Assembly: GCF_030733385.1 (NCBI RefSeq)
Contig: NZ_JASHJC010000015.1
Span: forward strand, 1-64,000
DNA length: 64,000 nucleotides
From: Roseovarius sp. MMSF_3359
GTDB taxonomy: Bacteria; Pseudomonadota; Alphaproteobacteria; Rhodobacterales; Rhodobacteraceae
Direction: 5' to 3'
The number at the start of each line of letters is the position of its first letter. The stretch's first letter is position 1. This document shows positions 1,867 to 25,776 of this stretch, piece after piece. A program made the translations under genes and the position numbers. Below the pieces are notes generated by a model, which worked only from the letters and a program-made list of their open reading frames with translations, ran no database searches and was not told where the DNA came from.

Positions 1867-1874
1867 ATACAACC

Positions 1875-4320: not shown

Positions 4321-4332
4321 TATCAGGACATC

Positions 4333-5120: not shown

Positions 5121-5327
5121 ATGGAAAAATATGAACTTCTTATTAGAACAATGCATGCAGCAGGGACTGCTCGTGACAAAGGATTGGAGAACATCGCAGA
5201 AGCACTTGATATTTGGGTCAAAAGGATATCGGCAATGATCGACGAAGAGATACGATCAAACCACAAAACTTCCCGCGACGGTGTGGCAAGAAGGCTTCCC
5301 CGTCGTCTAAGTAAAAGAAAGTGCTAG
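5121..5327 (+). CDS. Small hypothetical protein, 68 aa, copy 1 of a two-member paralog family
   Basis: The N-terminal 40 residues (MEKYELLIRTMHAAGTARD, then GLENIAEALDIWVKRI) match the protein at 7015-7203 in a conserved pattern: ELL-RTM-AA--AR--G--N-A-ALD--V. The C-termini differ; this copy ends in a very basic RRLPRRLSKRKC tail. It looks like two amphipathic helices with a charged tail. Each member of this family lies upstream of a member of the 61-aa family (5121 before 6123; 7015 before 7322), which suggests a functional pair. I do not recognise the family. A frame on the opposite strand (5218-5472) overlaps the 3' end but has no support. Confidence 0.65.
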   Translation: MEKYELLIRTMHAAGTARDKGLENIAEALDIWVKRISAMIDEEIRSNHKTSRDGVARRLPRRLSKRKC

Positions 5328-6109
5328 TTTGCACGTCTTCTGCGGTTCCGAGAACTCTACTTCCAAGTTTGATTTTTGCCTCGTTTTCGCCCACATGCAG
5401 GTCAAGTTTTCTCATCGCACCAAATGCACTTAGAAAGCAGCTCACTGGGCCATGGTTCCTGACCGGAACCATTGGGCGCAGGCACAGGGGGTGAATAAAA
5501 CTGATTGGGACGCCCTTACCTCAGCATGCAGCTTTCTGCTCCTAACGCTAGCTCACTGCTAATTTGACCGCTCGCACCGGAACGTCAGCCTTAGCGCAAA
5601 CGACCTTTTCATCTGTTGAGGTTTCAAGCCAGACCATCACGTAAAAACGAGAGAGGATCAAACGAAAAACCATCTAAACGGGACGCCTGCTTCACCGAAA
5701 ATCCGCCGCAGATGACATGAACCAGATAAGCCAGACCCTCTCTTAACTCACGCCGCCATCTTACCCAAAACCACCGGCGACGGACTAGCTCTAGAACTGC
5801 CTACTCAAATTCTTGCAGAGTTTCGGGACAATCAAGTGAAACTTCGTTCCAGCATTCAAGCTCTACAGGTCTGAAAGCCGAATTGCTGCTGCGCTGGTTC
5901 AAATGTAAAATTCGGGCATTCTTAGATTTGGACCTAATCGAAAACCATCGTTTGAATAGTTGCCACTTAGTAAAGCCGTAATACCTCCCCGGCTACTCGA
6001 GAGGTCTCGCATCCTTAATGTAACCATGGCAAAATATATGACGCGGGGTCACTGCAATTCCCCTATAGATTGTGCTCAAGATCAGCTAGTTGGTACGGGA
6101 GATTTCGTG
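5328..6109. other. Long intergenic region without a supported gene
   Basis: About 780 bases lie between two small genes. I see one 8-bp inverted repeat (5452-5472) and scattered short frames. A stretch near 5650-5770 (minus strand) vaguely recalls the non-coding end of a transposon, but not strongly enough to call. Confidence 0.45.
5452..5472. repeat. Perfect 8-bp inverted repeat (hairpin)
   Basis: ATGGTTCC at 5452-5459 pairs with GGAACCAT at 5465-5472 around a 5-base loop. No U-run follows on either strand, so a terminator is unlikely. It could be an operator or the end of a small element. Confidence 0.4.
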
Positions 6110-6122
6110 GGGAGCAATTCTG

Positions 6123-6308
6123 ATGACCGATCACAAATGGATGATTGATGTACTGGAAGACCTGGAGACGTATGCTGCAAACAATGAGTTAGATTCATTA
6201 AAGTGCTTGTTAGGCGAGGCGCGTTTAAAAGCCGAAATCGAATTCAGAGTGTTCAACAGCACGAAAAGACAAGTGCGAAGCTCTTCAACTGCTGCAAAGC
6301 TAAATTGA
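6123..6308 (+). CDS. Small hypothetical protein, 61 aa, divergent copy 2 of the three-member family
   Basis: The ATG at 6123 is chosen because GGGGAG lies 8 bases upstream and because the product is then exactly 61 aa, as in the other two copies. It starts MTDHKWMIDVLEDLETYAA and keeps the family frame MT--K------DLE--A, a second helix with L--AR, and a Ser/Arg-rich basic tail. It is much more divergent from the 4333 and 7322 copies than they are from each other. No known domain is seen. It probably pairs with the 68-aa gene at 5121, although the gap between them is wide. Confidence 0.65.
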   Translation: MTDHKWMIDVLEDLETYAANNELDSLKCLLGEARLKAEIEFRVFNSTKRQVRSSSTAAKLN

Positions 6309-6334
6309 GGCTCAGATCGTGAATTGAAAGCGTA

Positions 6335-6577
6335 TCAGGAACGCCTATCGAGCGGATCTATCTGTGCCAGGACCTCGCGGCCCAATAGGGTGACTATTAC
6401 TTTTGGACCGCCTTTCATCCCTTCAATTAGTCGAAGCGACAACAAAGAGCGGAAAGCGTCGGTGAACTCTTCAGGAGCGATCACGTTCTCACGTCCTAAG
6501 AACGTAAGAAGGTACACTTCGTCACCTGTCAGGCCTTTTGCAATGATATCTGCTGCTCTCTGAGTACTCACGTGCAA
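6335..6577 (-). CDS. Small hypothetical protein (~80 aa), possibly winged-helix-like
   Basis: The frame is convergent with the 61-aa gene ending at 6308. The composition is protein-like: a helix with LTGDEVYLLTFLGRE, a second helix EEFTDAFRSLLSLRLIE, then a beta-hairpin GGPKVIVTLLGREVLAQ. Helix, helix and wing in this order resemble the core of a small winged-helix protein. The start is a TTG at 6577 or a GTG at 6571; the ribosome binding site is weak (AAGAA). No catalytic motif or membrane segment is seen. A regulatory role is a guess from shape only. Confidence 0.5.
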   Translation of the reverse strand: MHVSTQRAADIIAKGLTGDEVYLLTFLGRENVIAPEEFTDAFRSLLSLRLIEGMKGGPKVIVTLLGREVLAQIDPLDRRS

Positions 6578-7014
6578 ATTCTTCGTCGAGAACCTGTTGG
6601 CGTAAATACGTGTGATTACCTAGGCTCGGTACGCAAGTGCGCCTAGCGCTCTTAAGCGCGGTTCCTTACATCAGATGACCGCCTTGAGTCGGAGGTCGAC
6701 AAGATCAGTTGTCAAAACAAGCTAGCTATTAACAGCGCAAAACTTCGAAGCAGCATAGCGACGGACATTATTACAGCACTCAAAACCGCTAACCTCGGCT
6801 AGCTTTTCAAGAGTGGAAGGTTTGCGATAGTCGTTTGTAGGAAACAAAGTTAACCCTCGTTAGCGATTTCAAGGAAGTTCCGGCCGGCTTAACAAAATTT
6901 GAGCGGGATAACGCCGAGTTTATCTATCGTGGTTCTAGGTCAACGGTTCATTAGCATTCTATTAATAATGTTGACTCATTAAAGTTAAAGAAATTGCAAA
7001 AGCAGGAGTAAAAC
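6578..7014. other. Intergenic region upstream of small gene 7015
   Basis: About 440 AT-rich bases without a supported gene. The inverted 13-bp match to the region upstream of the 5121 gene lies at 6903-6915. The start at 7015 is preceded by AGCAGGAGTAAAAC, a good ribosome binding site. Confidence 0.45.
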
Positions 7015-7203
7015 ATGGACACGAATGAGCTGCTCGTACGAACCATGAATGCCGCCAAAGAGGCCCGCGAAAGAGGTTTTGACAATACTGCCAGTGCTCT
7101 TGATGAAATAGTGGAAAGCTTGCTGGAATTATTGAATTCAAGAACCCAATCAGTGGGTGAAAAGCGAGCAAACATCGGTCTGGGCTTCCTCCATCTTCAC
7201 TAA
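7015..7203 (+). CDS. Small hypothetical protein, 62 aa, copy 2 of the two-member paralog family
   Basis: The ATG follows GGAG with 7 bases between. The product begins MDTNELLVRTMNAAKEARE and continues GFDNTASALDEIVESLLELL, matching the 68-aa protein at 5121 over the first 40 residues; its C-terminus is unrelated to that copy. It is predicted helical and acidic, without a signal peptide. It lies 118 bases upstream of, and in the same direction as, the 61-aa family member at 7322, so the two may be co-transcribed. Function unknown; the repeated pairing of the two families is the main clue. Confidence 0.7.
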   Translation: MDTNELLVRTMNAAKEARERGFDNTASALDEIVESLLELLNSRTQSVGEKRANIGLGFLHLH

Positions 7204-7321
7204 GAGCGGTTTTGGATGTTCTCTATCGCGAAGCGGAAATTTATCTCCTGTTAATCATAATCCCCAAGGTTGTGTTGTGCGGTGGGAATCACTCATGAAC
7301 ACGCCTTAGGGATGCAAAAGA

Positions 7322-7507
7322 ATGACGAACTACAAAGATGCACTTGTTCTGATGAACGACCTCGAAGAATTCGCCGAAACTCACAGATTCCCCGAAGCCG
7401 AAAACCTGATTGCAAAGGCCAGGATGGCTTTGGAGAAAGACATAGGCGGCATGTTCCCTCCTGTTCGAAAATCACCTAGGACATCGCGGATTTATTTAAT
7501 CCAGTAA
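7322..7507 (+). CDS. Small hypothetical protein, 61 aa, copy 3 of the three-member family
   Basis: The product begins MTNYKDALVLMNDLEEFAE and shares most residues with the 4333-4518 protein, including the second helix EAENLIAKAR and the tail pattern VRKSPRTSRIYL. The leader TTAGGGATGC before the start is also conserved with that copy. An overlapping frame in another phase (7270-7479) has no family support and is rejected. The gene lies between its putative partner (7015) and the integrase, just inside the island end. No known domain is recognised. Confidence 0.75.
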   Translation: MTNYKDALVLMNDLEEFAETHRFPEAENLIAKARMALEKDIGGMFPPVRKSPRTSRIYLIQ

Positions 7508-7536
7508 AGCAAAGAAAGCATTCCAGCCGAAACCTG

Positions 7537-8709
7537 TTACTCCTTCGACATCTTCCGAGCCATTACTTCCGCCGCTTCGCGCAGTGGATCATCTGCCAGA
7601 TGGGCATATCGTTGCGTGGTTGATGGGTTTGTATGTCCGAGCAGTCGACCGACAATGGGAAGACTCAATCCGCTTGAGACCAAATGAGACGCATGAGTGT
7701 GGCGGTTGTCATGAATACGGTAGTCCGCAAGCTCTGCTGTTTTTGTAACCGAGCGCCAAAACGCCTTCAGGTCTCTGTAGGGCTGATCTGGAGAACGTCC
7801 AGGAAATAGAAATCTGCTGTACGAGAACGACTCTGCGTGCATCCTTGTGAGCAACTCAATTGAAGCACGTGACAATGGCAGATGTTCGGTGCGCTTCTGC
7901 TTTGTGTGATGCGACGGTTTTATCCAGACTCCACGATCGAGAGCAAAATCTTCCCAAGTGGAAGATAGAACTTCTCCGATCCGCGCCCCTGTCAGCAACT
8001 GCAATCGAATCGCATTTGCAGCAATCTGGTTTGGGTGATCTGACAAGGCCTTCATCAGCCTGTTCAGTTCGTCATCGGACAGCCAACGTTGACGCTTTTC
8101 TTCTGCAAATTTCTCCACTCCCCGGGCCGGGTTGTCTTTGCGCATACCCCATCGAATCGAGAGCTCAAATGTTTTGGACAGTAAAGCCAGCGTTCGGTTA
8201 GCCTGGTATGGAGTTTGAGCCATTCTGTTGTGCAATCGCTGAACATCTTTGTAGGTAACCTCGAAAACACGGAGGTGCCCCAAATGCGGAATGACATAAC
8301 GATCCAACATTGAGCGATCGTTTCGAACGCTCGCAGGACGCTTCTTAGGAACGGCATGTTCTGCCAAGTACTGCTCCGCTAGGTCCGCTACAGACGGAGA
8401 CTGGCGAAGGAACTGAGCATCCGCAACCGGGTCACCGCCTCGCACAACATCAGCAAGCATTCCGCGCGCAATTTCCCGAGCATCGTTGAGCGACATGGTT
8501 GGTCCATATTGACCAATCGTCTTGCGCTTAGATCGTCCAGTCTGTCGATTGCGGTACTGCACGACGAAGCTTTTCACTCCGGTTGATTTAACCCGCAACC
8601 CAAATCTCGGCAAACCCCGATCCCAATAGATCACATCTCGGTTTCCGGGCTGAGTTCGATCTATTCTGGTTTTCGTGAGCTGCGTTTTGGGCATGATCAA
8701 ATTATGCAT
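7537..8709 (-). CDS. int: Site-specific tyrosine recombinase (integrase) of a genomic island
   Basis: This enzyme cuts and joins DNA at attachment sites to insert or excise the island. The 390-aa protein has the layout of P4/DUF4102-type island integrases: an N-terminal arm-binding domain (~10-95), a core-binding SAM-like domain (~105-190) and the catalytic domain (~205-380). All catalytic residues are visible: R243 in LTGARIGEVL, H333 and R336 in IHDNRHTHAS, H359 in LLGHTNPST, and Y368 in TTQRYAHL. It should be active. A second ATG at 8694 (MPKTQ) is an equally possible start. The gene faces away from a tRNA-Arg 3' fragment 150 bases upstream, the standard arrangement at one end of an island. 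Confidence 0.95.
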   Translation of the reverse strand: MHNLIMPKTQLTKTRIDRTQPGNRDVIYWDRGLPRFGLRVKSTGVKSFVVQYRNRQTGRSKRKTIGQYGPTMSLNDAREIARGMLADVVRGGDPVADAQFLRQSPSVADLAEQYLAEHAVPKKRPASVRNDRSMLDRYVIPHLGHLRVFEVTYKDVQRLHNRMAQTPYQANRTLALLSKTFELSIRWGMRKDNPARGVEKFAEEKRQRWLSDDELNRLMKALSDHPNQIAANAIRLQLLTGARIGEVLSSTWEDFALDRGVWIKPSHHTKQKRTEHLPLSRASIELLTRMHAESFSYSRFLFPGRSPDQPYRDLKAFWRSVTKTAELADYRIHDNRHTHASHLVSSGLSLPIVGRLLGHTNPSTTQRYAHLADDPLREAAEVMARKMSKE

Positions 8710-8855
8710 CTATCGACTAGGTAAGCAATAAGTAAGCAAATTTTGGAGAGCTTACACGAAATTTATCGAAGCAAAAGAAGCATCAAACAATTAAATTATA
8801 TATTATATAAGAAGAAAATAGAGGTACGCTGCAGTACAAAGAAGTAACACTGTAA

Positions 8856-8902
8856 GACTTCTAATCAGCAGGCTGAGGGTTCGAGTCCTTCCGGGATCGC
8901 CA
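8856..8902 (+). other. 3' fragment of tRNA-Arg(TCT), attachment site (att) at the island end
   Basis: From 8856 the sequence matches the 3' part of a tRNA: anticodon loop CTTCTAA (8858-8864, anticodon TCT), 3' anticodon strand TCAGC, T-arm GAGGG-TTCGAGT-CCTTC (8875-8891), acceptor strand CGGGATC, discriminator G and encoded CCA (8900-8902). Upstream there is no D-arm and no 5' acceptor strand. The bases before the anticodon loop (GTAAGA) do not pair with TCAGC, so this is not a complete gene. Such fragments arise when an integrase uses the 3' half of a tRNA gene as its target. The orientation puts the island to the left, with the intact tRNA expected beyond base 1. Confidence 0.85.
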
Positions 8903-8920
8903 ACAAATACAACGCTTTGC

Positions 8921-9487
8921 CTAGTCGGAATGCGCGTCAATATCCTTGGCTTGTTGATAGTTTCCGGATCGCAAGCGGAAGGTGTCTTCGATGATCGAGG
9001 CGAGAGCGGCAACGCTGACGAGGAAGCCCGAGATCGGCACGATCGCGATAGCGTATTTCTTGGGCATGTAGTTCGGCTTGAAGACAAGACCGCCATCCTC
9101 CCACGCGAAGTACCACATCTCCCAGTATTTGCCGCCCATGGTGGCCACTGCCTCCAGGCCATAGACAATCATCACGATGCCGAGGCCGAAAATGACCAGC
9201 GACCAGAATTGCTGGATCGCAAAAGCAGCCTTCAGTGGCAGCCAGGAATAGATCAGGTCAAGCGCGATGTGATCGCGGTCGCGCACCGTCAGGGCAAGGG
9301 CGAAGAAGACCAGCCAGATATTGCTCAGCACGGTCAGGAGGTCGCCCCAAACCGGCGGATTCTCAAAGACGTAACGCATCACAACCGAATAGACCGTGAA
9401 GGCCACCATCAGCAGGAGCAGCACGGCGCAGAACGCAGTCAGGGTGCGCTTGACCATGCGGTCGATGAAGATGACAGCGCCGCGCAT
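8921..9487 (-). CDS. dctQ: TRAP transporter small membrane subunit (DctQ type)
   Basis: It is the 4-TM membrane component that works with the large DctM subunit and the periplasmic binding protein in sodium-driven uptake of organic acids or related solutes. It is 188 aa; hydrophobic segments lie at about 15-35, 50-70, 85-110 and 140-165, with the typical RYVFENPPVWGDLL motif between the first two. Its start overlaps the dctM stop by one base (TGATG), so the two are translationally coupled. It is the last gene of the operon, an uncommon order because dctQ usually precedes dctM. The island attachment site lies 18 bases beyond its stop, so the island was inserted directly against this operon. 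Confidence 0.9.
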   Translation of the reverse strand: MRGAVIFIDRMVKRTLTAFCAVLLLLMVAFTVYSVVMRYVFENPPVWGDLLTVLSNIWLVFFALALTVRDRDHIALDLIYSWLPLKAAFAIQQFWSLVIFGLGIVMIVYGLEAVATMGGKYWEMWYFAWEDGGLVFKPNYMPKKYAIAIVPISGFLVSVAALASIIEDTFRLRSGNYQQAKDIDAHSD

Positions 9488-10776
9488 CAGTTCGAAAACC
9501 CGAAGGCGCGCGGCAGGAACATGGTGATGTCCGGCACCACGATCAGAACGAAAAGCAGGGCAAAGAGGGCCAGCAGATAGGGCAGCATGGCAAGGGCGAC
9601 CTTTTCAAGCCGCACCTCGGCAATCGCCCCGGCGGTAAAGAAGGCGACGCCCACCGGCGGGGTGACCGACCCGATCAGGAAGCCCACGACCACGACAAGG
9701 GCTGCCTGCACATCCGGGTATCCGGCCTTGACCATCACGTCCACGAGGACCGGCCCGACAACGATGATGTTTGCAGCGGAGTCCATCACCATGCCGAGCA
9801 GGCAGATGAAAAGGACAAGCACGAGGGCGAAAACAAGCGGGCTGTAGGTATAGCTGAGCAACCAGGTCTCGAGTTGGCTGATCGCCCCGAGCGAGGTCAA
9901 AAGCCAGCTAAACGGCCCCGACGCCGCGATGATGATGAACACCATGGCCGAGTTGCGGAAGGCCCGCACAAAGGCGCTTTTGCAGTTGGTCCAGGTGATC
10001 GTGCGGTAGATGAAAAGCCCCACGAAAAGCGCGATGGTGGCAGTGAGCGCGCCCGCCTCGACAACGCCCGCGATGCCAAAGACCACGGAACCGACCAGCA
10101 CGATGGGAATGAGGAGCGCGAAGGAGGATTTATAGCCGACAATGGCGATGGCCTTGAGGCTGAACGGTTCCTCGCTGCGTTCGAAATTGTTCCGCCGCGC
10201 GATGATATAGTTGATGATCATGAGCAGCACGCCGATCATGATCCCCGGCACGATGCCACCGGCGAAGAGCGCCCCGACCGAAATGCCCCCGGCATTAGCC
10301 AGCACGATCATCATGATCGAGGGTGGTATGATGCCGCCGATAGTCGAGCTTACGGCAGTGATCGCCGCCGCGAAGGCCGCGGGGTATCCTGACCGTTTCA
10401 TCGCCGGAACCAGAAGCGAGCCAACCGTTGCCGTATCGGCCACGACCGAGCCGTTCATGCCCGCGAAGAACATGCTGACCAGGACATTGGCCTGCGCCAT
10501 GGAACCCCGCATCCGCCCGATCAGGCGCTGGCTCAACTCGACGAGGCGGTCGGTGATGGTGGCACTGGTCATCAATTCGCCGGTGAGCATGAAGAAGGGG
10601 ATCGCCGTCAGGGGAACCGAGTCGATCGCGCTGAACATCTGGCTCGGGATCAGGATCATCGGCGCGGCATCGGTTATCAGGATATAGGCCACCGGGATCA
10701 GGATCATGGTGAACCCGACCGGTGCGCCCAGCATGATCAGCACCACCAGAATGACCAGAAGCAAAACGCTTTCCAT
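9487..10776 (-). CDS. dctM: TRAP transporter large membrane subunit (DctM type)
   Basis: This 429-aa protein has about 12-13 membrane segments and the glycine-rich loops typical of the ion-transporter superfamily (GGIIPPSIMMIVLANAGG and GFLIGSVTPPVG). It forms the translocation channel and uses the sodium gradient. It follows dctP with a 110-base gap containing a strong hairpin and overlaps dctQ by one base. The substrate is not predictable from the membrane subunits. Confidence 0.93.
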   Translation of the reverse strand: MESVLLLVILVVLIMLGAPVGFTMILIPVAYILITDAAPMILIPSQMFSAIDSVPLTAIPFFMLTGELMTSATITDRLVELSQRLIGRMRGSMAQANVLVSMFFAGMNGSVVADTATVGSLLVPAMKRSGYPAAFAAAITAVSSTIGGIIPPSIMMIVLANAGGISVGALFAGGIVPGIMIGVLLMIINYIIARRNNFERSEEPFSLKAIAIVGYKSSFALLIPIVLVGSVVFGIAGVVEAGALTATIALFVGLFIYRTITWTNCKSAFVRAFRNSAMVFIIIAASGPFSWLLTSLGAISQLETWLLSYTYSPLVFALVLVLFICLLGMVMDSAANIIVVGPVLVDVMVKAGYPDVQAALVVVVGFLIGSVTPPVGVAFFTAGAIAEVRLEKVALAMLPYLLALFALLFVLIVVPDITMFLPRAFGFSN

Positions 10777-10829
10777 AAGGGGTTCGTCCTATTCGTCTTT
10801 CAGGCGGGCCGCTTCGTTTCCGATATGGC

Positions 10830-10858
10830 AGGTGGCGCAGCAGGACCCCGCGCCACCT
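10830..10858 (-). terminator. Intercistronic hairpin between dctP and dctM
   Basis: A perfect 9-bp stem (AGGTGGCGC with GCGCCACCT) closes an 11-base loop and has no U-run. In TRAP operons such hairpins usually protect or attenuate the transcript so that more binding protein than membrane protein is made. The second TRAP operon in the window has one in the equivalent position (17853-17876). Confidence 0.6.
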
Positions 10859-10886
10859 CTGTTAAATTCAAGAATATCGCCAGGCT

Positions 10887-11927
10887 TCAGAGCGCGCCAG
10901 CTTCCTCAAGCTGCGCGATGAAACCGGTCATGCCCTGTTCCTCAAGCACGCGGCGGGCGGTGTCGGGATCATAGGTGCCTTTGGCGTTCAACCAGGCATC
11001 AATTGCCCCTGCGCGCCACTGCACCAGCTCTTCCTCGGTCGGCACATACCATTCCTCGATCTCGGCCTTGATCGCGGTTTCGCCGGCCTCGACCCAGGCG
11101 CGGTCAAGTTCCTGAACCTTTTGGCCGAATGCCTGCGCGGCGGTGTGCAGCCATTCCTTCTCCTGATCGGTCAGGGCGTCATATTGGCGCTTGTCCATCG
11201 AAAGCTGATTGCCGGACCACGATCCGCCGATTTCGGTGAAGTACTTCGCCACCTCGTGCAGCTTGGCGACATGCTGCCAGGGCGTGGCCACGTACTGGCC
11301 CGACACGACACCTGTTTGCAGCCCCTGGTAAAGCTGCGACCAGTCATAGGGCACTGGGACCGCGCCCCAGTTCTTGACCAGCGTGTATTCAATCGGGCTC
11401 TTGGTCACGCGCCATTTGATGCCCTCCATGTCCGACGGCACATGCACGGGGCCATGGGCGTTGCCCAGTTGACGGAAACCGCCGCTGGAATAGACGGTCA
11501 GGCAGACATGTCCGGCCTCTTCCGCGGCAATGTCACACTGTTTCTTGGCCAGCCATTCCGACGAGATGCGGTCCGCATCCTCGATACTCTTGAAGATGTA
11601 AGGCAGGTCGAAAATGGCGAGGGACGTGCCGAAATTGCCGAAATTTGCGGTCGAACTGGTCCAGAGCGCGATCAGGCCCTGATTGGCCTGCTCGCCACAA
11701 GATTGCTCGCTGCAGAGCGACTTGCGGTAATGCGGCTCGATCGTGAGTTGACCGCCCGACACTTCCTCAAGGGTCGGGATCAGGGCCTGGTCAATGGCAT
11801 CGCCGATCGGCATGCCCAGAAAGCCTACCGTCCCGAGTTTGAGCACCTTTTCGGCCGCGGCGGGGTGCGCGAAAAGCGCCGTCGCCGATGCGATACAAAG
11901 AGCCGTGCATATGGATTTCATCCTCAT
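10887..11927 (-). CDS. dctP: TRAP transporter periplasmic substrate-binding protein (DctP type)
   Basis: It is exported by a Sec signal peptide (positively charged start, hydrophobic core ALCIASATALF, cleavage near HPAAA-EK), and binds the solute in the periplasm. The start at ATG 11927 gives the best spacing to GGGAG; two other in-frame ATGs lie within 15 bases. The family block YSSGGFRQLGN with the SPIEYTLVKNWGAVPVPY region contains the usual arginine that binds a carboxylate. The mature protein has two cysteine pairs (SLCSEQSCGE and KKQCDI...GHVC), rather unusual for DctP. A MocR-type regulator is divergent from it, which suggests an amino-acid-related or taurine-like ligand; this is inference only. 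Confidence 0.92.
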   Translation of the reverse strand: MRMKSICTALCIASATALFAHPAAAEKVLKLGTVGFLGMPIGDAIDQALIPTLEEVSGGQLTIEPHYRKSLCSEQSCGEQANQGLIALWTSSTANFGNFGTSLAIFDLPYIFKSIEDADRISSEWLAKKQCDIAAEEAGHVCLTVYSSGGFRQLGNAHGPVHVPSDMEGIKWRVTKSPIEYTLVKNWGAVPVPYDWSQLYQGLQTGVVSGQYVATPWQHVAKLHEVAKYFTEIGGSWSGNQLSMDKRQYDALTDQEKEWLHTAAQAFGQKVQELDRAWVEAGETAIKAEIEEWYVPTEEELVQWRAGAIDAWLNAKGTYDPDTARRVLEEQGMTGFIAQLEEAGAL

Positions 11928-12101
11928 TGATCTCATCTCCCGTTTATTATGTTTTGCTTGGCATCATCTTTCACCGCGCCCTGTGCCGATGAAAGTGACA
12001 GATGACTCGAAAGAAGGGGACAGATAGGGTTGCATCTGACACCCCGTACCGGAACGCGGTAGGCTGGCAAGGAGATGAGCCGTGCCCCGAGGAGGCTTCT
12101 G

Positions 12102-16823: not shown

Positions 16824-17840
16824 ATGACATATTTGAAGTCGTTCACAACCCTTGCGGCAGCTGCGTCACTCGCAGCGCTGTCATTTGCCGCTCCGGCAAT
16901 GGCGAAAAATTTCAAGATCGCGGTCGGCGACAGTGGTGGATCGAGCCAGGAAGCGACCGGTCTGGGCTTCGTCAAAGCCCTTGAAGAGTTGTCGGGCGGC
17001 AAGCACACCGCGACGCTCTTTTTGAACGGCCAGTTGGGCTCGGAGCAGGATACCGTCAACGACGCGGCCATCGGCACGCTGGACATGTCGCTGCTGGCGA
17101 TCAACAACATCACACCATTCTCGCCGACGGTTGGCGTTTTCACCCTGCCTTACGTGATCCTGAGCCTTGAAGACGCGGAAACGCTGACCCAGGGCCCCAT
17201 CGGTCAGGAGCTGACCGAGAACACCATCAACGACGCGGGCGTTCGCATCATCGCCTGGACCTATACCGGTTTCCGCCGTCTGACCAACTCCAAGAAGCCC
17301 GTCACGTCGGTTGCCGATCTTGAAGGTCTCGTGATCCGCGTTCCCAAGAACGAGATCATGATCGACACCTACAAGGCCTGGGGCATCAGCCCGACACCGA
17401 TGGCCTGGTCCGAGACCTTTGCCGGTCTGCAAACCAAGGTTGTGGACGGTCAGGACAACCCCTACACCACGATCAACGCGATGAAGTTCTACGAGGTGCA
17501 GAAATACGTCACCAACATCCGTTACATCTTCTCGATTGAGCCGCTGATCATCTCGGAGCAGGTGTTCCAGGAGCTGTCGGAAGAGGATCAGAACATCGTG
17601 CTTGAAGCCGGTAAGGCCGCAACCCAGGCATCGGCCCAGTTCCTGCGCGACAAGGAAGCCGAGATCAAGCAGATCCTGCTCGACAAAGGCATGGAGATCA
17701 TGGACCCCGAGAACAACGAACAGGAGTTCATCGACCTGGCAACCGCAGCCGTCTGGCCGAAATTCTATGACAGCATTGGCGGCGTTGAAAAGCTGAACGA
17801 AGTGCTGGCGGCCATCGGTCGCGACCCAGTCTCGGAATAA
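16824..17840 (+). CDS. dctP: TRAP transporter periplasmic substrate-binding protein (second system)
   Basis: A Sec signal peptide (hydrophobic LAAAASLAALSFAAPAMA-KN) leads a 338-aa binding protein. GGGAG lies 9 bases before the ATG. Typical DctP features are YTGFRRLTNSKKPVTSVADL, RVPKNEIMIDTYKAWGISPTP and GLQTKVVDGQDNP, including the arginine that holds a carboxylate. It differs from the first DctP in having no cysteine pairs. A hairpin separates it from dctQ. The genes downstream suggest uptake of a substrate linked to the biosynthetic cluster that follows, but a terminator after uspA separates the two transcripts. Confidence 0.94.
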   Translation: MTYLKSFTTLAAAASLAALSFAAPAMAKNFKIAVGDSGGSSQEATGLGFVKALEELSGGKHTATLFLNGQLGSEQDTVNDAAIGTLDMSLLAINNITPFSPTVGVFTLPYVILSLEDAETLTQGPIGQELTENTINDAGVRIIAWTYTGFRRLTNSKKPVTSVADLEGLVIRVPKNEIMIDTYKAWGISPTPMAWSETFAGLQTKVVDGQDNPYTTINAMKFYEVQKYVTNIRYIFSIEPLIISEQVFQELSEEDQNIVLEAGKAATQASAQFLRDKEAEIKQILLDKGMEIMDPENNEQEFIDLATAAVWPKFYDSIGGVEKLNEVLAAIGRDPVSE

Positions 17841-17852
17841 TCAAAAATAACG

Positions 17853-17876
17853 AAAGGCGCCCCCCGGGGCGCCTTT
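17853..17876 (+). terminator. Hairpin between dctP and dctQ (attenuator)
   Basis: AAAGGCGCCCC pairs perfectly with GGGGCGCCTTT around two bases and is followed by TTGC. It should stop or slow part of the transcription, giving excess binding protein over membrane subunits. Confidence 0.75.
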
Positions 17877-17914
17877 TGCAAAAATAGGCTTCTGCATAAG
17901 ACAGAGAGGGGCAA

Positions 17915-18517
17915 ATGACAAAATTCTGGGGAATACTCAACAACATAGAAAGCTACATATGCCGCACGTTACTTGCGGTATTTGTGTGCCTGCTTTTCCT
18001 GCAGGTGGTCGTGCGGACACTCTTCAACTTCTCGTTTTCCTGGGTCGAAGAGGCGTCTGTCTACATGTTCGTCTGGTTCGTGTTCTTCGGGGCGAGCTAT
18101 GCCGCCAAGATGGGTGCGCATAACCGGGTGACGTTCCAGTTCAAGTTCCTGCCGCCCCGGGCGATCAAGTTCATCGAGGCGTTTGCCGATCTCTTCTGGG
18201 TGTTCTTCAACGTCTACTTCGTCTACCTGGCGATCGACTTCATCTTCAACAAGATGAACCGGTTCCAGTCTTCGCAGACAATGGGCTTCCACCTGAGCTG
18301 GGTCTATATCGTCCTGCCGATTGCCTTCACGCTGATGACCATTCGCGTGCTTCAGGTGAACTACAGGAAGATCATCCTCGACGAAGACATGCGCGACCCG
18401 GACGCGATCGACCTGGATGAAGTCCGGGCCGAGACCGAGGCGGCAGAAGCCATCCACCAGGAAGAAATCAGAGCCGAAATTGAAACGGCCACCAAAGACG
18501 AGCAGGGGGACAAGTAA
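17915..18517 (+). CDS. dctQ: TRAP transporter small membrane subunit (second system)
   Basis: GAGGGG lies 5 bases before the ATG. The 200-aa protein has four membrane segments and the typical family stretch RTLFNFSFSWVEEASVYMFVW. The C-terminal ~35 residues are a highly charged Glu/Arg/Thr tail (EVRAETEAAEAIHQEEIRAE) predicted to be cytoplasmic and possibly coiled coil, longer than in many DctQ proteins. It overlaps dctM by one base (TAATG). Confidence 0.92.
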   Translation: MTKFWGILNNIESYICRTLLAVFVCLLFLQVVVRTLFNFSFSWVEEASVYMFVWFVFFGASYAAKMGAHNRVTFQFKFLPPRAIKFIEAFADLFWVFFNVYFVYLAIDFIFNKMNRFQSSQTMGFHLSWVYIVLPIAFTLMTIRVLQVNYRKIILDEDMRDPDAIDLDEVRAETEAAEAIHQEEIRAEIETATKDEQGDK

Positions 18518-19857
18518 TGGAATCCGAAATCATTCTCATCCTGTTCGGCGGCTTCCTTCTGCTGCTGTTCATCGGGGCGCCGATCACGGTGGCCCTGGGC
18601 GTCTCGACGCTGATCTCGTTCATCTATCTGGACGAAAACCCGATCAAATTCGTGCAGATCGCCTTCACCTCCGTGGGCTCCTTCCCGCTGATGGCCCTGC
18701 CCGCCTTCATCCTTGCGGGGGCCTTGATGGAGGCCTCGGGGCTTTCCCGAAGGCTTATCAACGTCGCCGAAAGTTTTGCCGGTCCGTTTACCGGCGGGAT
18801 GTCGGCGGCGACGGTCTTTGCCTGTCTGTTCTTTGGCGCGATCTCGGGCTCCGGCCCGGCCACGACGGCTGCCGTCGGCATGCTGATGATCCCGGCGATG
18901 ATCGACCGCGGCTATAGCCGTAACTTCTCCTCGGCCATCACAGCCTCCTCGGGCGGGCTGGGCATCGTCATTCCGCCCTCGATCCCGCTCATCATCTTCG
19001 GCATCGCCGCCCTTGGCATGCCGCCCCCCCCGGAGGCCGTGGAACAGCATGGCGTCTTCCAGACCGTGTCGATCCCGAAACTGTTTATCGCGGGCTTCAT
19101 GCCGGCCTTCCTGATCGCGGGCAGCCTGCTCATCATGAACTACATCCTGGCCAAGAAAAACGGCTACAAGGGCAGCGCCGAGGGCTGGTCCGCCCGCCAT
19201 ATCTGGTGCGAGATGTATCGCGGTTTCTGGGCGCTGATGGCACCGGTCGTGATCCTGGGTGGCATCTATTCGGGCTTCTTCACGCCGACCGAGGCCGCCA
19301 TCGTCGCGATCTTCTACACGCTGGTCGTGGGCGCGTTCATCTACCGCGAACTGACATGGGAAAAGCTCTTTACCTCGCTTGAGACCACCACATGGCTCAC
19401 CGGTCGGGTGCTTCTCATCATGTTCACGGCGACGGTGTTCGGCAGGCTTCTGGTCGAAAACCAGATCCCGGCGATCATCGCGGACGGGATGCTGTCGGTC
19501 ACCGACAACATCTATGTGATCTGGACGCTGGTCATCTTCTTCCTGCTCTTCGTGGGCATGTTCATGGAGACGCTGGCCACCATCCTGATCCTGGTGCCGG
19601 TGATGCTGCCCGTAGCCTATTCCGTGGGGATCGACCCGATCCACTTCGGTGTCGTCATGGTCTGTTGTCTCGGTATCGGGTTCCAGACGCCGCCATTGGG
19701 CGAGAACCTCTTTATCGCTTCAGGTATCTCGAACATCTCGATCGAGTCGATATCGCTGGCGGCCCTGCCGTTCGCCTTCATCAACACGATTGCGATCTTC
19801 ATCATCGCCTTCGTGCCGGAGATATCCCTGTGGCTTCCACGGTTCTTCGGCTACTAG
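18517..19857 (+). CDS. dctM: TRAP transporter large membrane subunit (second system)
   Basis: This 446-aa protein has about 12 hydrophobic segments and the two conserved loops GGLGIVIPPSIPLIIFG and CCLGIGFQTPPLGENLF. It forms the transport path and is energised by sodium. It is coupled to dctQ by a one-base overlap and followed after 25 bases by a UspA protein, as in the ectoine transporter operon teaABCD, where TeaD is a UspA-type regulator. Confidence 0.94.
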   Translation: MESEIILILFGGFLLLLFIGAPITVALGVSTLISFIYLDENPIKFVQIAFTSVGSFPLMALPAFILAGALMEASGLSRRLINVAESFAGPFTGGMSAATVFACLFFGAISGSGPATTAAVGMLMIPAMIDRGYSRNFSSAITASSGGLGIVIPPSIPLIIFGIAALGMPPPPEAVEQHGVFQTVSIPKLFIAGFMPAFLIAGSLLIMNYILAKKNGYKGSAEGWSARHIWCEMYRGFWALMAPVVILGGIYSGFFTPTEAAIVAIFYTLVVGAFIYRELTWEKLFTSLETTTWLTGRVLLIMFTATVFGRLLVENQIPAIIADGMLSVTDNIYVIWTLVIFFLLFVGMFMETLATILILVPVMLPVAYSVGIDPIHFGVVMVCCLGIGFQTPPLGENLFIASGISNISIESISLAALPFAFINTIAIFIIAFVPEISLWLPRFFGY

Positions 19858-20393: not shown

Positions 20394-20421
20394 AAGGGCG
20401 GCCTTCGGGCCGCCCTTTTTT
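20394..20421 (+). terminator. Rho-independent terminator after uspA
   Basis: A perfect 10-bp stem (AAGGGCGGCC with GGCCGCCCTT) closes a stable TTCG tetraloop and runs into a T tract. It separates the TRAP-uspA operon from the biosynthetic cluster. Confidence 0.95.
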
Positions 20422-20863: not shown

Positions 20864-21658
20864 ATGTACAGTGCAAGAATGGTAAATTCCCTCGCCGAAC
20901 CCGTCACGAATGTGGCCTCCCTCGCTGGCATCAGCGTCAGTGAAATGCTCCCCGCGCAGGAATGCATCCTGCCCGGTATTGGCGGCGTCCTGACAAACCG
21001 AACCGGCGATTTCGACCTCAAGGGGCGTGATGCCTGGATCTTCATCAGCATCAAGAACCGGGGGTTCAACCGCCCGTATATCGACCGTTTCATCGACATG
21101 TGTGACAGGCTCGAGTTGAATGGCCATGTCTGCGCGGTGGATGATCCCTATCGCTACAACAGCATGGCAGAACTCAAGCGCGATGACCTTCCCGAGGAAG
21201 AAGCCGCCAAGATCGAACGCCTGTCGACCGACATCACCCGCATGGTGCAGAAGGCGATCAACGGCAAACGGACAAGCCGCGTGGACATCGTGAAATGGAG
21301 CGATCTCGAAAGCGCCACGCCCGCGATCTACCGCGAGGAACTGACCCGCGCGTTCCATGGCGGCGGGCAGATCCGCGATATCCTTTATGACCACGTAAGC
21401 TCGGTCAAACCGATCGAGACCGAGCGCGATTTCGAACGCTTTGCCGAGTTTTTCCTGTGCGAGGTGCCGGTGTTGATCAACGCCTATTACAGCAACGGCC
21501 CGACCATCGACATCTATCCGGGGCCGCAACCGAAGTTCTTCTGGCAGATCGAGATGGGGCTTTTCGCCGATGAACTCCCTGAACTGACGGCACTCACGCA
21601 GGCGGGGCGTTCGATGCTCTACCTGGACACCCATGACCGGAGCAAAACCAAGAAATGA
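20864..21658 (+). CDS. Divergent cyclodipeptide-synthase-like protein
   Basis: I place the start at ATG 20864 (AGGTGG 8 bases upstream), giving 264 aa. By eye it follows the tRNA-dependent cyclodipeptide synthase (CDPS) pattern. A strand ends in WIFISIKNRGFNRPYIDRFI (S62 at the catalytic serine, N65 as in the NYH type). The helical region carries DDPYRYNSMAEL, then SDLESATPAIYREELTRAF, then FAEFFLCEVPVLI with E200 at the catalytic glutamate. CDPS enzymes use two aminoacyl-tRNAs to make a diketopiperazine. Here the tyrosine four residues before the glutamate is F196, and the Tyr-His/Pro pair is probably W227-Q228, so activity or substrates may differ. It heads an overlapping operon with a GNAT, a racemase and an A-T-TE enzyme. 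The family call is motif-based. Confidence 0.6.
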   Translation: MYSARMVNSLAEPVTNVASLAGISVSEMLPAQECILPGIGGVLTNRTGDFDLKGRDAWIFISIKNRGFNRPYIDRFIDMCDRLELNGHVCAVDDPYRYNSMAELKRDDLPEEEAAKIERLSTDITRMVQKAINGKRTSRVDIVKWSDLESATPAIYREELTRAFHGGGQIRDILYDHVSSVKPIETERDFERFAEFFLCEVPVLINAYYSNGPTIDIYPGPQPKFFWQIEMGLFADELPELTALTQAGRSMLYLDTHDRSKTKK

Positions 21659-22470
21659 CACTTGTAGCGGAACGGACCGACAACGTGTCCGAGATCTCGG
21701 CCGAGGAGGTTCTGGCCAGCCATTTCACGTTGGTGGCCAAACCCGGTGCGATTGATCCGATCCTCCTGGACGGGGCCGACGGCTGGACATCGCCCAACCC
21801 GCACCCGGCACTCAGCCTCATGCGCTGGACCACCACGGATCGCGATGCCGCCGCGGCGGCCCTTGATGAGGTGGTGGAGCGGTTCCGCAGCGAAGGCCGC
21901 GGGTTTGACTGGATGACCGGCCCGCGCTGCGCCGAGGCTGGCCTCGTTTCGCTGCTCGAAGAACGCGGGTTCATCCCGCCGCCTCTGCAGGTCGCCGCAA
22001 TGGTCAAGCGGATCGAGCCGGGCCACCCCCCGCAAGACCCCGATGGTGTGGACATTCGCAAGGTCGAAGACCTCACCGATGCACGTATCTGGGGCGTCAT
22101 GGCGACAGGGTTCGATATCCCCGCCGATGTGGCGGGCATTTTCCATGATGCCTACGCGATGCCATCGGACCTGCAACGGACCGACATCTATGCGGCCACT
22201 GTCGATGGCGGCGATGCGCCGGTTGCGGTCGGTTACCTGTCCTATATCGGCGATGGTCCCACGGTGCTGCTGCGCGTGTCTTGCACGTTGGAAGGCAACC
22301 GCGGGCGCGGCATCTACACCGGCGTGGTGAACCGGCGCCTGCATGACGCGGCCCGGCAGGGACGCACGCAGTGTTTCGTGCACGCCTACTCCGAAGAATC
22401 GCGCCGCTGCCTGGAACATCTGGGCTTCCACAGTGTCGGTACGCTTCAGCTTCATCGGTGGCGGCCATGA
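21655..22470 (+). CDS. GNAT-family N-acyltransferase
   Basis: The C-terminal half of this 271-aa protein is a GNAT fold: a strand PVAVGYLSYIGDGPTVLLRVSCT, then the acyl-CoA loop GNRGRGIYTGVVNRRLHDAA, then HAYSEESRRCLEHLGFHSVG, the usual motif B end. The N-terminal ~110 residues look like a degenerate second GNAT-like domain. It should transfer an acetyl or acyl group to an amine. It overlaps the CDPS-like gene and the racemase gene by 4 bases each (ATGA), so the three are coupled. The likely target is an amine in the product of the cluster, which is inference. Confidence 0.8.
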   Translation: MTLVAERTDNVSEISAEEVLASHFTLVAKPGAIDPILLDGADGWTSPNPHPALSLMRWTTTDRDAAAAALDEVVERFRSEGRGFDWMTGPRCAEAGLVSLLEERGFIPPPLQVAAMVKRIEPGHPPQDPDGVDIRKVEDLTDARIWGVMATGFDIPADVAGIFHDAYAMPSDLQRTDIYAATVDGGDAPVAVGYLSYIGDGPTVLLRVSCTLEGNRGRGIYTGVVNRRLHDAARQGRTQCFVHAYSEESRRCLEHLGFHSVGTLQLHRWRP

Positions 22471-23228
22471 GTGTGCACGTCCGGGTCATCACCCCGATCA
22501 TCTCCACCGGTCTGGTGCAGGCCTCCGATTTCGAGGGCATTCTCGACCCCGACGACACGCTTGATTTCACCGAGCTTGACGAAGGTCCGGCCTCGGTCGA
22601 AAGCGGGTATGACGCGGCGCTTGCCGTCCCCGATACGATCGCCAAGATCCGCGCTGCCGAGGCCGAGGGTGTCGATGCCGTCGTGATCGACTGCATGGGC
22701 GATCCCGGGCTTGTACCCGGACGCGAATGCGTCAAGATCCCCGTCCTTGGCCCCTGCCAGATGGCGATGAGCATCGCGTCGACCCTTGGCCACCGCTATA
22801 GCGTCCTGTCGATCTCGCGGGCGACCCATGCGTCGTTCCTGCGGCGGGCGCGGGAATATGGCGTTGCAGACAAGTATGCGTCGACCCGGTCCATCGATAT
22901 CCGGGTGGCAAACCTGCGCGCGCAATCCGACCTCAGACGCGAACGCCTTCTTGTCGCAGCCAAGGCCGCCATCGAAGAGGACGGCGCGGATACGCTCATC
23001 ATCGGCTGTACGCAGATGTTCGGCGCCGCCCGGCAGTTGGAGCAGGACCTGGCGGCCGAAGGGCTCGACATCCCGGTTATCGACCCGGTGCCGCTGACCG
23101 TGAAACTGGCGAAAACGTTCGTCGAGATTGGCCTCAGCCATTCCAAATACGCCTTTGCCACCCCTGCCCGGCTTCGCGCCGAAGAACGTCCGGCACCGCC
23201 ATTGACGGCGGTCGGGTCCAACGGCTGA
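22467..23228 (+). CDS. Asp/Glu/hydantoin racemase family protein
   Basis: The 253-aa protein has the two-domain layout of cofactor-independent racemases with one catalytic cysteine per half: C in VIDCMGDPGL and C in IIGCTQMFGAA. The opening VRVITPIIS and later VPVIDPVPLTVKLA fit the HyuE/Asp-Glu racemase branch. It would invert the alpha-carbon of an amino acid or hydantoin, or act as a maleate/arylmalonate-type enzyme of the same superfamily. In this operon it could supply a D-amino acid or epimerise a diketopiperazine-like ring; neither is proven. The start overlaps the preceding stop (ATGA). Confidence 0.85.
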   Translation: MSVHVRVITPIISTGLVQASDFEGILDPDDTLDFTELDEGPASVESGYDAALAVPDTIAKIRAAEAEGVDAVVIDCMGDPGLVPGRECVKIPVLGPCQMAMSIASTLGHRYSVLSISRATHASFLRRAREYGVADKYASTRSIDIRVANLRAQSDLRRERLLVAAKAAIEEDGADTLIIGCTQMFGAARQLEQDLAAEGLDIPVIDPVPLTVKLAKTFVEIGLSHSKYAFATPARLRAEERPAPPLTAVGSNG

Positions 23229-23256: not shown

Positions 23257-25776
23257 ATGTATGACGTGCAGGAAAACGTGGCTATGAACCTGCCTGATGC
23301 GGAAGTTGTCGAGGCAAGGCCGCGGAAATTCGATTTCGGCGCCATGGTTCTCGACGCGCTGGAAAACGATCCCGATCGCTGTGCTTACCGGTTCGACGGA
23401 AGTGAACTGACCCGCGGGCAGTTGCGCGACGCGGCCTTGGCGCTTGCGGAGCAGTTGCGGGATGCAGGCTTGCAACCAGGGGCGCCGGTTGCGGTCGAAA
23501 TCGAACACTCGCTGGAGCTGGCCATTGCGCTCTGCGGCCTCATGGCCGCCGGTGCCTGTATCGTGCCAATTGACCCCGCTGTCGGGACCGAGCGCCGCGA
23601 TGCGATCCTCGCCGATATCCGCCCGGCTTTCGTCCTGACGCGGTCCATGTCGCCCGACGACAGCCACGGGATCAACATCGACCGCCCCGCTGGCGCGGGC
23701 GACCAAGTTGACTGCGATCCGGACCTCGCCTTCATCGTCTATACCTCCGGGACCAGCGGCGGCCCGAAAGGCGTGATGATCACCCACGAAAACTATGTGC
23801 GCCGCATGCAGCATATCGTGCCAAGCGTGACCACCAAGGAAGATGACCTCGACCTCGCCTGGACGCCGTCGAGCTTCATTACCATGGTGGATGAGCTGTT
23901 TCTGCCGCTTCTATGCGGCGTGCCGAGCGTGATCGCCAAACCCGAAATCCGCACTGATCCCCGCGCCTTCAAGGCTTTGGTGCAGCGCGAAGGCGTGACG
24001 ACGTTCCGCATCACGCCGAGCCTCCTGAACGTGGTCTTGCGGTCAGGCGGCGCAGGCGAAGCCCTGGCCAAGATACGCACGTTGATCTGTAGCGGAGAGG
24101 CAATGCCCGCCGACCTGCAGCGGTCGGTTCATCGGCAGCTTTCGGCCAATGTCCTTGGGTTTTACGGCGCAACTGAGGCGCCAGCCGCCGCCAAGACGGT
24201 TTTTGATCAAGACACAAAGCCGGTCGACACCACGATCTGCAGCCGCCAGCCCTTTGTGTTGCTGCGTGTCGTGGACCCGGACGGCACCGAGGTTGCGGTC
24301 GGCGAGACCGGCGAAATATGGGTCGGGGGCTGTGCCGTTGCGCGGGGGTATTATCGCCGGCCCGAATTGACGGCCGAGAAGTTCGTGACGCGCGACGGGG
24401 AGAACTGGTATCGGACCGGCGATCTTGCGCGCCGCCTGGAAGACAATCAGGTAGAAATCCTGGGGCGCTCCGATCTCAGCGAAGTCAACATTCACGGGGT
24501 CCGCGTGAGCCTGCCCGAAATTGCAGACACCTTGCGCGGCCTCGAAAGTATCAGCGAGGCCTGGGTAAGCGTGGTCGCCCCCGGCACCGGACGCGATCCG
24601 GTTCTGGTCGGCCATTGCGTGCCCTCAAGCGGCCTCTCCTTTGATGCGGAGGCCACCCGCGCGGAGATCACTACCAAGCTGCCGACGCTCGCTGTGCCCC
24701 GCGCGCTGCTGGCGCATGATGACTTCCCGCTGACCGCCAACGGCAAGCTCGATGTGCAAAAACTCCTGCGACACGCCACGGATCATGTCGAGGCGCAGGC
24801 CACCCGGAATGCCGAACCCCAGCAGGTCAAGGGATCGGCCACAGAAATCGCCGTCCTCAACTGTTTCGAGCAGGCTTTGGGCCGGCGGCAATTGTCGATC
24901 AACGAGAGCTTTTTTGATGCGGGCGGCACATCGCTCGAGGCCGTGACCCTCGCGGGTTTCCTGTCGGATCATTTCAACACCGATATCGGCTTTGAGGAAA
25001 TCTGGCTGAACCCGTCGATCCGGGAGCTGTCGGATTTCATCGAAAGCCGCGGTGGACAAAGCCCGGCGCGCACGTTTTTCCATGTTGAGGGGGTGAGCGG
25101 GCCAAACCTCATCGCCATCGGTTTCGGCATCGGGCATCTCGCCGGTCTGTGGCCGCGGCACCGGCTCTTCATCAGCCCCGGCATCGCCGGTGATCCGCGT
25201 ATCTCGCTGCGCAAGCGGCTGGATGATTACGTGGCCGAATATATCGAGGGCCTGCGCCGGATCCAGCCGACCGGGCCTTATCAACTCATCGGTTTTTCGT
25301 TTCACGGGCTGCTCGCCTATGAAATCGCCCGCAGGCTACATGCCGACGGCGAGGAGGTCACCGGGATCGCGCTGATTGAACCTGTGACGCCGAAAGCAGG
25401 CGGGCGCAGGCGGTCCTATGTCGCGGCGGCAGCCAAGGTCACGTTGCGCAATATCGCCGCCCGCCACCTTGGCGTCACGCGCAACATGCTGCGCCTGGCG
25501 CGGGACAGCATTGTCAAGGCCCGGGTACGTCCCCGGTCGGGGCAACGTAATGCCTATGGGCATGTGGTCGTGGCCGCCGAACGGCTTGAGCCGCTCGACC
25601 TGCCTGTTGACCTGATCTATTGCGACAGCTTTGAGACCGAGGCGCTGGACGCCTGGAAAGAAGTCGCCGGCGAAAACCTGCGCTTGCGTTGGGTGTCGGC
25701 AGAGAACCATCAAAGCCTGATCCAGCCGGACGCCATTGCCCAGTGGAAAGATGTGATCGACACGTGGCGTCATTGA
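23257..25776 (+). CDS. Single-module NRPS-like enzyme: adenylation-thiolation-thioesterase, no condensation domain
   Basis: The 839-aa protein has an adenylation domain (~27-505) with core motifs YTSGTSGGPKG (from Y162), GFYGATEAP, YRTGDLA, GRSDLSEVNIHGVRV and the A10 lysine K497 (NGKLD). A carrier domain follows (~530-595; S559 of DAGGTSLE takes phosphopantetheine), then a type I thioesterase (~605-839) with S681 in GFSFHG and H818. It should activate a carboxylic acid as AMP ester, load it and release, hydrolyse, cyclise or dimerise it. In the binding pocket the usual Asp235 seems replaced (segment SFITMVDELF), as seen when the substrate lacks a free alpha-amino group. A-T-TE enzymes such as RalA act on aryl-pyruvates, so that is one option. 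GGTGGAG precedes the start. Confidence 0.88.
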   Translation: MYDVQENVAMNLPDAEVVEARPRKFDFGAMVLDALENDPDRCAYRFDGSELTRGQLRDAALALAEQLRDAGLQPGAPVAVEIEHSLELAIALCGLMAAGACIVPIDPAVGTERRDAILADIRPAFVLTRSMSPDDSHGINIDRPAGAGDQVDCDPDLAFIVYTSGTSGGPKGVMITHENYVRRMQHIVPSVTTKEDDLDLAWTPSSFITMVDELFLPLLCGVPSVIAKPEIRTDPRAFKALVQREGVTTFRITPSLLNVVLRSGGAGEALAKIRTLICSGEAMPADLQRSVHRQLSANVLGFYGATEAPAAAKTVFDQDTKPVDTTICSRQPFVLLRVVDPDGTEVAVGETGEIWVGGCAVARGYYRRPELTAEKFVTRDGENWYRTGDLARRLEDNQVEILGRSDLSEVNIHGVRVSLPEIADTLRGLESISEAWVSVVAPGTGRDPVLVGHCVPSSGLSFDAEATRAEITTKLPTLAVPRALLAHDDFPLTANGKLDVQKLLRHATDHVEAQATRNAEPQQVKGSATEIAVLNCFEQALGRRQLSINESFFDAGGTSLEAVTLAGFLSDHFNTDIGFEEIWLNPSIRELSDFIESRGGQSPARTFFHVEGVSGPNLIAIGFGIGHLAGLWPRHRLFISPGIAGDPRISLRKRLDDYVAEYIEGLRRIQPTGPYQLIGFSFHGLLAYEIARRLHADGEEVTGIALIEPVTPKAGGRRRSYVAAAAKVTLRNIAARHLGVTRNMLRLARDSIVKARVRPRSGQRNAYGHVVVAAERLEPLDLPVDLIYCDSFETEALDAWKEVAGENLRLRWVSAENHQSLIQPDAIAQWKDVIDTWRH

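Follow-up and report, generated by a model that had tools for sequence, protein, structure and literature searches.

A probable remote relative of XYP cyclodipeptide synthases, with phenylalanine at the Tyr178 site, in a conserved four-gene cassette of Alphaproteobacteria

A tyrosine at the position of Tyr178 of AlbC is described as conserved throughout the family of cyclodipeptide synthases (CDPSs) in a passage on the enzyme ParcuCDPS (PMC7613923). A 264-residue protein encoded in the DNA analysed here, a stretch of 64,000 nucleotides from Roseovarius sp. MMSF_3359 (hereafter the window), has phenylalanine at this position. The locus raises the question whether this protein is related to the CDPSs, whether it could still work as one, and what it might make together with the genes that accompany it (Table 1).

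Table 1. Features of the cassette and of the CDPS-like protein, in window coordinates
Feature	Position	Strand	Basis
Terminator-like hairpin after the upstream Usp gene	20394..20417	+	Consensus scan only: 10-pair stem, then T run
CDPS-like enzyme gene, 264 aa	20864..21658	+	Uninterrupted frame (ORF reading of the window); profile, profile-profile, conservation
Active-site loop S62-I-K-N65 (AlbC S37/N40); F60, two residues before S62, where AlbC has Gly35	21047..21058	+	Alignments
D93, opposite ParcuCDPS D58	21140..21142	+	Alignment column
F196-F-L-C-E200, with Phe opposite AlbC Y178 and Glu opposite E182	21449..21463	+	Profile-profile alignment, conservation
Y218-P219, proposed to match the XYP pair Y202-P203	21515..21520	+	Alignments, spacing
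GNAT-type acyltransferase, 271 aa; 4-base overlap (ATGA) with the CDPS-like gene	21655..22470	+	Orthology
Hydantoin/allantoin-type Asp/Glu racemase, 253 aa, Cys pair C76/C181; 4-base overlap with the GNAT gene	22467..23228	+	PF01177, profile
NRPS, A-PCP-TE without condensation domain, 839 aa; I208 for expected Asp	23257..25776	+	Pfam domains, alignment

The frame of the CDPS-like gene holds a second in-frame ATG upstream, at 20810. Conservation sets in at the motif M-Y-S-x-R in all four sequences, i.e. the window protein and three homologues, and 20864 is therefore the likelier start. The homologues are 74-80% identical to the window copy and were found in Litoreibacter meonggei (locus L002; 80% identity), in a Marinicaulis MAG (L003; 76%) and in genome G992 (74%), which belongs to the window's own family and to a different genus. 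The species-genome search covered 84,980 genomes and required exact short peptides, so that distant members could escape it. At E 0.001, the window's own genome was the sole one to match in sets of 146 relatives, 385 class members and 398 genomes from the phylum; in the phylum set, 32 others gave short-stretch matches at E 0.008-0.77 only, which were judged to be chance. The family set of 394 genomes held two carriers, the window's genome and one more, and the copy of the Marinicaulis MAG was the sole one among the 62 genomes of its family; all these genome sets overlap in part. The gene is rare in the genomes sampled. No relatives were found in 72,556 plasmid records or, behind an exact-peptide prefilter, in viral contigs, and PADLOC, consulted for an anti-phage role, matched neither the CDPS-like protein nor the GNAT. 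Purifying selection acts on the CDPS-like gene, with a dN of 0.14-0.19 among pairs, the lowest of the cassette genes, and dN/dS values near 0.05 and 0.08 for the two pairs with computable dS (dS >2, near saturation); the third pair was saturated.

Several features of the surroundings were recorded alongside. In the Marinicaulis MAG, a tRNA-Val gene (L003 9620-9695) lies downstream of lon, and the CDPS-like gene begins about 300 bases further on; DNA is commonly inserted at tRNA genes. In the window, two separate TRAP transporter operons lie upstream of the cassette, at 8921-11936 (-) and 16824-19854 (+), and the predicted hairpin may separate the cassette from the TRAP and Usp genes. Further upstream, a stretch at about 1000-9000 has a GC content of 0.44-0.51, compared with about 0.6 in much of the rest, and few long ORFs; a tyrosine recombinase gene (7537-8709 (-), PF00589) lies near its end, and the stretch looks like a mobile or decaying island. 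Two pairs of look-alike ORFs of about 60 aa were noticed there by eye, 4333-4518 (-) with 7322-7507 (+) and 5121-5327 (+) with 7015-7203 (+), sharing the motifs 'YKDALVL.NDLEEFA' and 'ELL.RTM.AA..AR..G', and these may be duplicated small genes. Rfam at gathering score gave no family in window positions 1-12000. A LuxI-like autoinducer synthase gene (1833-2534 (+), PF00765 E 5.3e-19) is situated about 18 kb upstream of the cassette.

The kinship of the protein with CDPSs is remote. No Pfam family matched any of the four members at E 1, and the sole NCBIfam match was TIGR04539 (tRNA-dependent cyclodipeptide synthase; E 0.0023), at 17.5 bits against a cut-off of 45; two of the three members scanned matched this profile at E 1. 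A scan of genomes with TIGR04539 gave 0/299 in the phylum, 0/14 in controls and also 0/1 for the window's own genome, which carries the target, and is therefore uninformative on absence. Searched as a single sequence with phmmer against the PDB, the protein had a pyruvyl transferase as top match (E 0.18), ahead of 9gun (E 0.35), whose title calls it a putative CDPS. The weakness of these single-sequence searches, with 9gun placed behind an unrelated protein, is what speaks for a chance resemblance of a protein unrelated to CDPSs. Against this stand the comparisons made with profiles. With a three-sequence profile (hmmsearch), 9gun came first in the PDB at E 5.9e-4, followed by a ParcuCDPS mutant (0.2) and by ion channels at E 0.29 or above. 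Profile-profile alignment with hhalign, which took in three of the four family members, the fourth being found later, gave E 4.3e-5 and a score of 39.0 against eight CDPSs of the Tyr-His type, and E 8.2e-6 and a score of 42.5 against the XYP pair of 9gun and ParcuCDPS. The eight comparators comprise AlbC and seven sequences fetched from 22 plasmid records with a CDPS; all eight have Tyr-His, and position 40 is Asn in seven of them and Thr in L041. For each reference set, all 150 column-shuffled controls scored lower, with maxima of 23.4 (Tyr-His type) and 20.0 (XYP pair), and the reversed-profile controls (24.6 and 13.9) were likewise under the real scores. As a yardstick, the XYP pair aligned to the eight Tyr-His-type enzymes at E 3.2e-11, and the window protein is therefore further out than that pair.

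Predicted structures, both of low confidence, lean the same way. The full-length AlphaFold model (pLDDT 43.5) had a CDPS at Foldseek rank 1, but at a non-significant E of 1.5. A model without the N-terminal 43 residues (pLDDT 44.8), whose alignment held no CDPS, gave CDPSs at ranks 1-4 (9gun E 3.4e-4, AlbC 5.8e-3, two at 0.02-0.05), with TyrRS fifth; of the 902 matches up to E 10, only 9gun was below E 0.001. The TM is about 0.3. Since Foldseek scoring also draws on sequence and the TM is this low, we use the structure match as supporting evidence only. The checks proposed with the original prediction, which had named the protein as CDPS-like, are divided: the Pfam profile search gave no match, while the best Foldseek match is a CDPS, on weak models. 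Neither a structure prediction lacking the CDPS fold nor a match to an unrelated family turned up, again with the models being weak. With profile-profile scores beyond those of every shuffle in both reference sets, CDPSs as best structural matches and catalytic residues in register, we consider chance resemblance very improbable. The homology to CDPSs exceeds chance, and we place the protein as a remote CDPS homologue under the curated cut-offs.

The residues that would form the active site are largely those of a CDPS. S62, N65, D93, F196, E200, Y218 and P219 are invariant in all four sequences, and S62, N65 and E200 align with S37, N40 and E182 of AlbC, as had been read from the window sequence beforehand. 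Ser37 and Glu182, expected of a CDPS, are thereby matched in 4/4, and D93 stands where ParcuCDPS has D58, the partner of the catalytic Ser that is needed for activity, a change of this Asp costing over 90% of the activity (PMC7613923). The third expected residue, Tyr178, is replaced by F196 in 4/4. We do not file the protein as a plain member of the family because of this replacement and because of its score under the curated cut-off.

The position of the cyclising Tyr is the point on which our alignments depart from the original prediction, which had taken W227-Q228 for the Tyr-His or Tyr-Pro pair. Three aligners (hmmsearch, hhalign and MAFFT) place Y218-P219 on the 'IYPG' of 9gun, and E200 and Y218 are 18 residues apart, as are their counterparts in 9gun, compared with 20 for ParcuCDPS (Y191-P192) and for 8/8 Tyr-His-type enzymes. 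The assignment is alignment-based, and 9gun is the sole comparator with a spacing of 18. W227-Q228 would require a spacing of 27-28, compared with 18-20 in 10/10 comparators (one 18, nine 20), and is also rejected on the three aligners, all via 9gun. In the MAFFT alignment, ParcuCDPS contributes Y189-V190 at the position of the pair. The catalytic Tyr of ParcuCDPS is given as Y191 in one passage of PMC7613923 and as Y189 in its introduction; taking Y191, the alignment may be shifted by two residues here. The earlier reading is probably wrong, most likely through misalignment, and Y218, with P219 after it, is the most likely cyclising Tyr. With Y218-P219 taken as the Tyr-Pro pair, the putative signature N-Y-P (N65, Y218, P219) fits XYP, where X is any residue. 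By alignment, the Pro after the catalytic Tyr that defines the XYP subfamily is present in 4/4, with N65 at X40, and stands in place of the His that defines the NYH subfamily.

The Phe four residues before the Glu, which had been singled out from the window sequence, is indeed opposite Y178 of AlbC in all four sequences. It differs from 11/11 comparators (the eight of the Tyr-His type, 9gun, ParcuCDPS and FoCDPS), which we count against the CDPS reading, and no description of a natural Phe at this site was found in the literature searched. Sequence divergence, together with Phe at both AlbC positions 35 and 178 and the acidic character of the protein (pI 5.2), would be in keeping with a fold that has lost tRNA use and now ligates or hydrolyses some other substrate. 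Previous work on mutants indicates that the replacement need not be so costly. ParcuCDPS with Tyr changed to Phe (Y167F) still makes product in lower yield, its authors argue that the Tyr ring matters and the hydroxyl does not, and three other XYP enzymes are cited as active after mutation of the equivalent Tyr (passages of PMC7613923). The equivalent Tyr of Nbra-CDPS stacks against A76 in the RNA (PMC13062777), and by analogy Phe can retain this stacking. F196 does not imply loss of function, since the XYP Tyr-to-Phe mutant keeps reduced activity; we predict an active enzyme because Phe is tolerated in ParcuCDPS, stacking can persist and the gene is under purifying selection. The remaining catalytic residues are kept, as is a basic stretch at residues 117-145 (pI 10.9). 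The suggestion that tRNA use was lost altogether is, on this pattern, not supported: Ser, Glu, Tyr and Asp are all retained under purifying selection, and the ParcuCDPS mutant makes product. We regard such a loss as unlikely.

A second Phe, F60, occupies AlbC position 35 in 4/4 sequences. In CDPS 87, Phe at this second residue of the P1 pocket goes with cyclo(Gly-Glu) and is thought to exclude any side chain (PMC5816076, in part). By analogy to this one published enzyme, the lead is that P1 of the window protein perhaps takes glycine.

The genes that follow suggest a biosynthetic setting. The cassette is present at 4/4 loci and complete at three. In the window and in G992 the order is CDPS-like gene, GNAT, racemase, NRPS; the Litoreibacter locus has the same cassette with the racemase first, and the Marinicaulis contig, which ends inside the racemase gene, is consistent as far as it reaches. 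In a comparison across the cassette, identity to the window proteins falls from 75-80% for the CDPS-like protein to 62-65% for the GNAT, 55-56% for the racemase and 40-42% for the NRPS; the CDPS-like gene changes less than its three neighbours. That the family may define a new subgroup, as the original prediction suggested, is reasonable, with Phe at both positions in 4/4 and the complete cassette at 3/4 loci. No description of this combination of genes was found in the literature searched.

Each of the three neighbours was assigned on different grounds. The GNAT of the window has no Pfam match, nor has its L003 orthologue; PF00583 matched the orthologues at L002 (E 4.5e-6, above cut-off) and L043 (E 0.005, below), RGxG is kept in 4/4, and a GNAT profile, consulted for a Fem-like (aminoacyl-tRNA-using) kinship, found no relative of any kind in the PDB at E 0.01. 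Its putative identity is assigned by orthology. The racemase has both the profile match and the two catalytic Cys of the Asp/Glu racemase family: PF01177 matched at E 5.8e-34 with 118 bits against a cut-off of 31 (in the longer ORF from 22371), and C76 and C181 are invariant in 3/3, with a spacing of 105 that equals that of the pair 79/184 in KpAllR. Its profile matched 3qvj ('putative hydantoin racemase', E 2.7e-38), 5lfd (allantoin racemase, 1.7e-26) and 9qbx (OpaE, a fungal epimerase, 7.9e-12). Two homologues of this family are described as acting on related products: NozR isomerises a CDPS-made diketopiperazine (PMC10156859) and OpaE epimerises an oxepinamide (PMC12661438). The NRPS has PF00501, PF00550 and PF00975 and, by Pfam, no condensation domain at the 3/3 loci long enough to show them. 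In its A domain, I208 stands opposite the Asp of both LgrA A domains (by eye, in the printed alignment), and I208 and R251 are invariant in 3/3. This Asp normally binds the alpha-amino group of the substrate, and an Arg in the region of R251 could face a carboxylate. Since the NRPS is without the usual amino-group-binding Asp, the acid used in the A-PCP-TE step may be one that has no free alpha-amino group. The nucleophile motif of the TE is GFSFHG in the window copy, which keeps Ser; at L002 (11598-14192) and L043 (10472-13066) Cys replaces the nucleophilic Ser.

The presence of a condensation-free A-PCP-TE at 3/3 loci long enough to show it also brings in a mixed tRNA and thiotemplate route, in which one aminoacyl group (or the acceptor) would come from the PCP, or a dipeptide bound to Ser62 would be passed to it, so that the product is not a free cyclodipeptide. 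The use of acyl-CoA thioesters (aminoacyl-CoA) was proposed in 2010, from gene context, for CDPSs beside acyl-CoA ligases (PMC2922099, in part). In AlbC, Y178F lowers efficiency, and in simulations the ester flips away from Y202 (PMC5935735, in part); Phe at this site might by extension slow cyclisation and leave time for transfer. This route is disfavoured by the conservation of the proposed cyclising Y218 in 4/4 and by the missing Asp in the A domain, which makes a plain aminoacyl-PCP less likely; moreover, NRPS genes are frequent near ordinary CDPSs, whose clusters often hold N-acetyltransferases and thiotemplate genes (PMC5767969, in part). We consider it rather unlikely. A narrower form, in which a clade with Phe at the Tyr178 site hands a tRNA-derived dipeptide to the carrier protein of a condensation-free A-PCP-TE enzyme, is a speculative idea to which we give little credence; if true, it would amount to a tRNA-fed replacement for an NRPS condensation module.

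We therefore propose, as the likely reading, a divergent cyclodipeptide synthase of XYP-like character that acts first among the enzymes of a four-gene biosynthetic cassette. The backing consists of homology, conserved residues, a conserved cassette and purifying selection; the score below the TIGR04539 cut-off, the lack of a Pfam match, the low pLDDT of both models, the low TM and the reduced efficiency of AlbC Y178F count against it. Judged by its sequence, the protein is homologous to CDPSs and probably works like an XYP enzyme. Ser62 would take the aminoacyl group from a tRNA, perhaps a glycyl group, with F60 possibly filling the P1 pocket, and a second aminoacyl-tRNA would be added with the help of E200. 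The ring of F196 may hold the terminal adenosine, as Tyr does elsewhere, and closure to the diketopiperazine could run through a proton relayed by Y218. Next, a stereocentre of the ring would be inverted by the hydantoin-type racemase, and the GNAT would acylate a free group. The A-PCP-TE enzyme may activate a carboxylate without a free alpha-amino group, e.g. an acidic cyclodipeptide side chain or an acyl partner, and its TE would release or join the activated product.

N-acetyltransferase and thiotemplate genes near CDPSs (PMC5767969) and a racemase-family enzyme in a CDPS pathway (PMC10156859) are already known. The present family extends the relatives of CDPSs beyond the curated profiles tried, and its natural Phe makes the role of the Tyr hydroxyl testable in a wild-type enzyme. 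The cassette unites an enzyme of tRNA-dependent type, a racemase from a group acting on diketopiperazines and an NRPS with a non-canonical adenylation domain, and predicts an undescribed metabolite, which may be a small peptide product, in Alphaproteobacteria (two named carriers, in Roseobacteraceae and Parvularculaceae). The sequence can also serve as a starting point in searches for clusters that escape the family profiles.

Among known systems, the XYP CDPSs 9gun (P. gingivalis) and ParcuCDPS (7QB8) are closest, as they share the Ser, Asp (D58), Glu and Tyr-Pro in register and are the best profile and structural match, 9gun also having the same Glu-to-Tyr spacing of 18; identity to the window protein is 26% and 22%, respectively, in the MAFFT alignment. 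Unlike them, the window protein has Phe for Tyr178 and Phe for the Gly/Ala at AlbC position 35; counted from the N-terminus, its Ser comes 25 residues later than that of AlbC, and it scores under the family cut-offs. The NYH enzymes AlbC and YvmC are homologous by hhalign (E 4e-5) and share Asn at position 40, but the window protein has Pro rather than His after the catalytic Tyr and a spacing of 18 rather than 20. CDPS 87, a cyclo(Gly-Glu) synthase likened here by its description only, has the same Phe at the second P1 position (PMC5816076). The nocardioazine pathway differs in that its CDPS, NozA, has a separate locus and produces cyclo(Trp-Trp), and in that a prenyltransferase and a methyltransferase are the partners named in the excerpts of PMC10156859, in place of an A-PCP-TE enzyme or a GNAT. 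What the cassette resembles in it is the pairing of a CDPS with NozR, a cofactor-free enzyme of the racemase family with a Cys pair, which isomerises the cyclodipeptide (PMC10156859).
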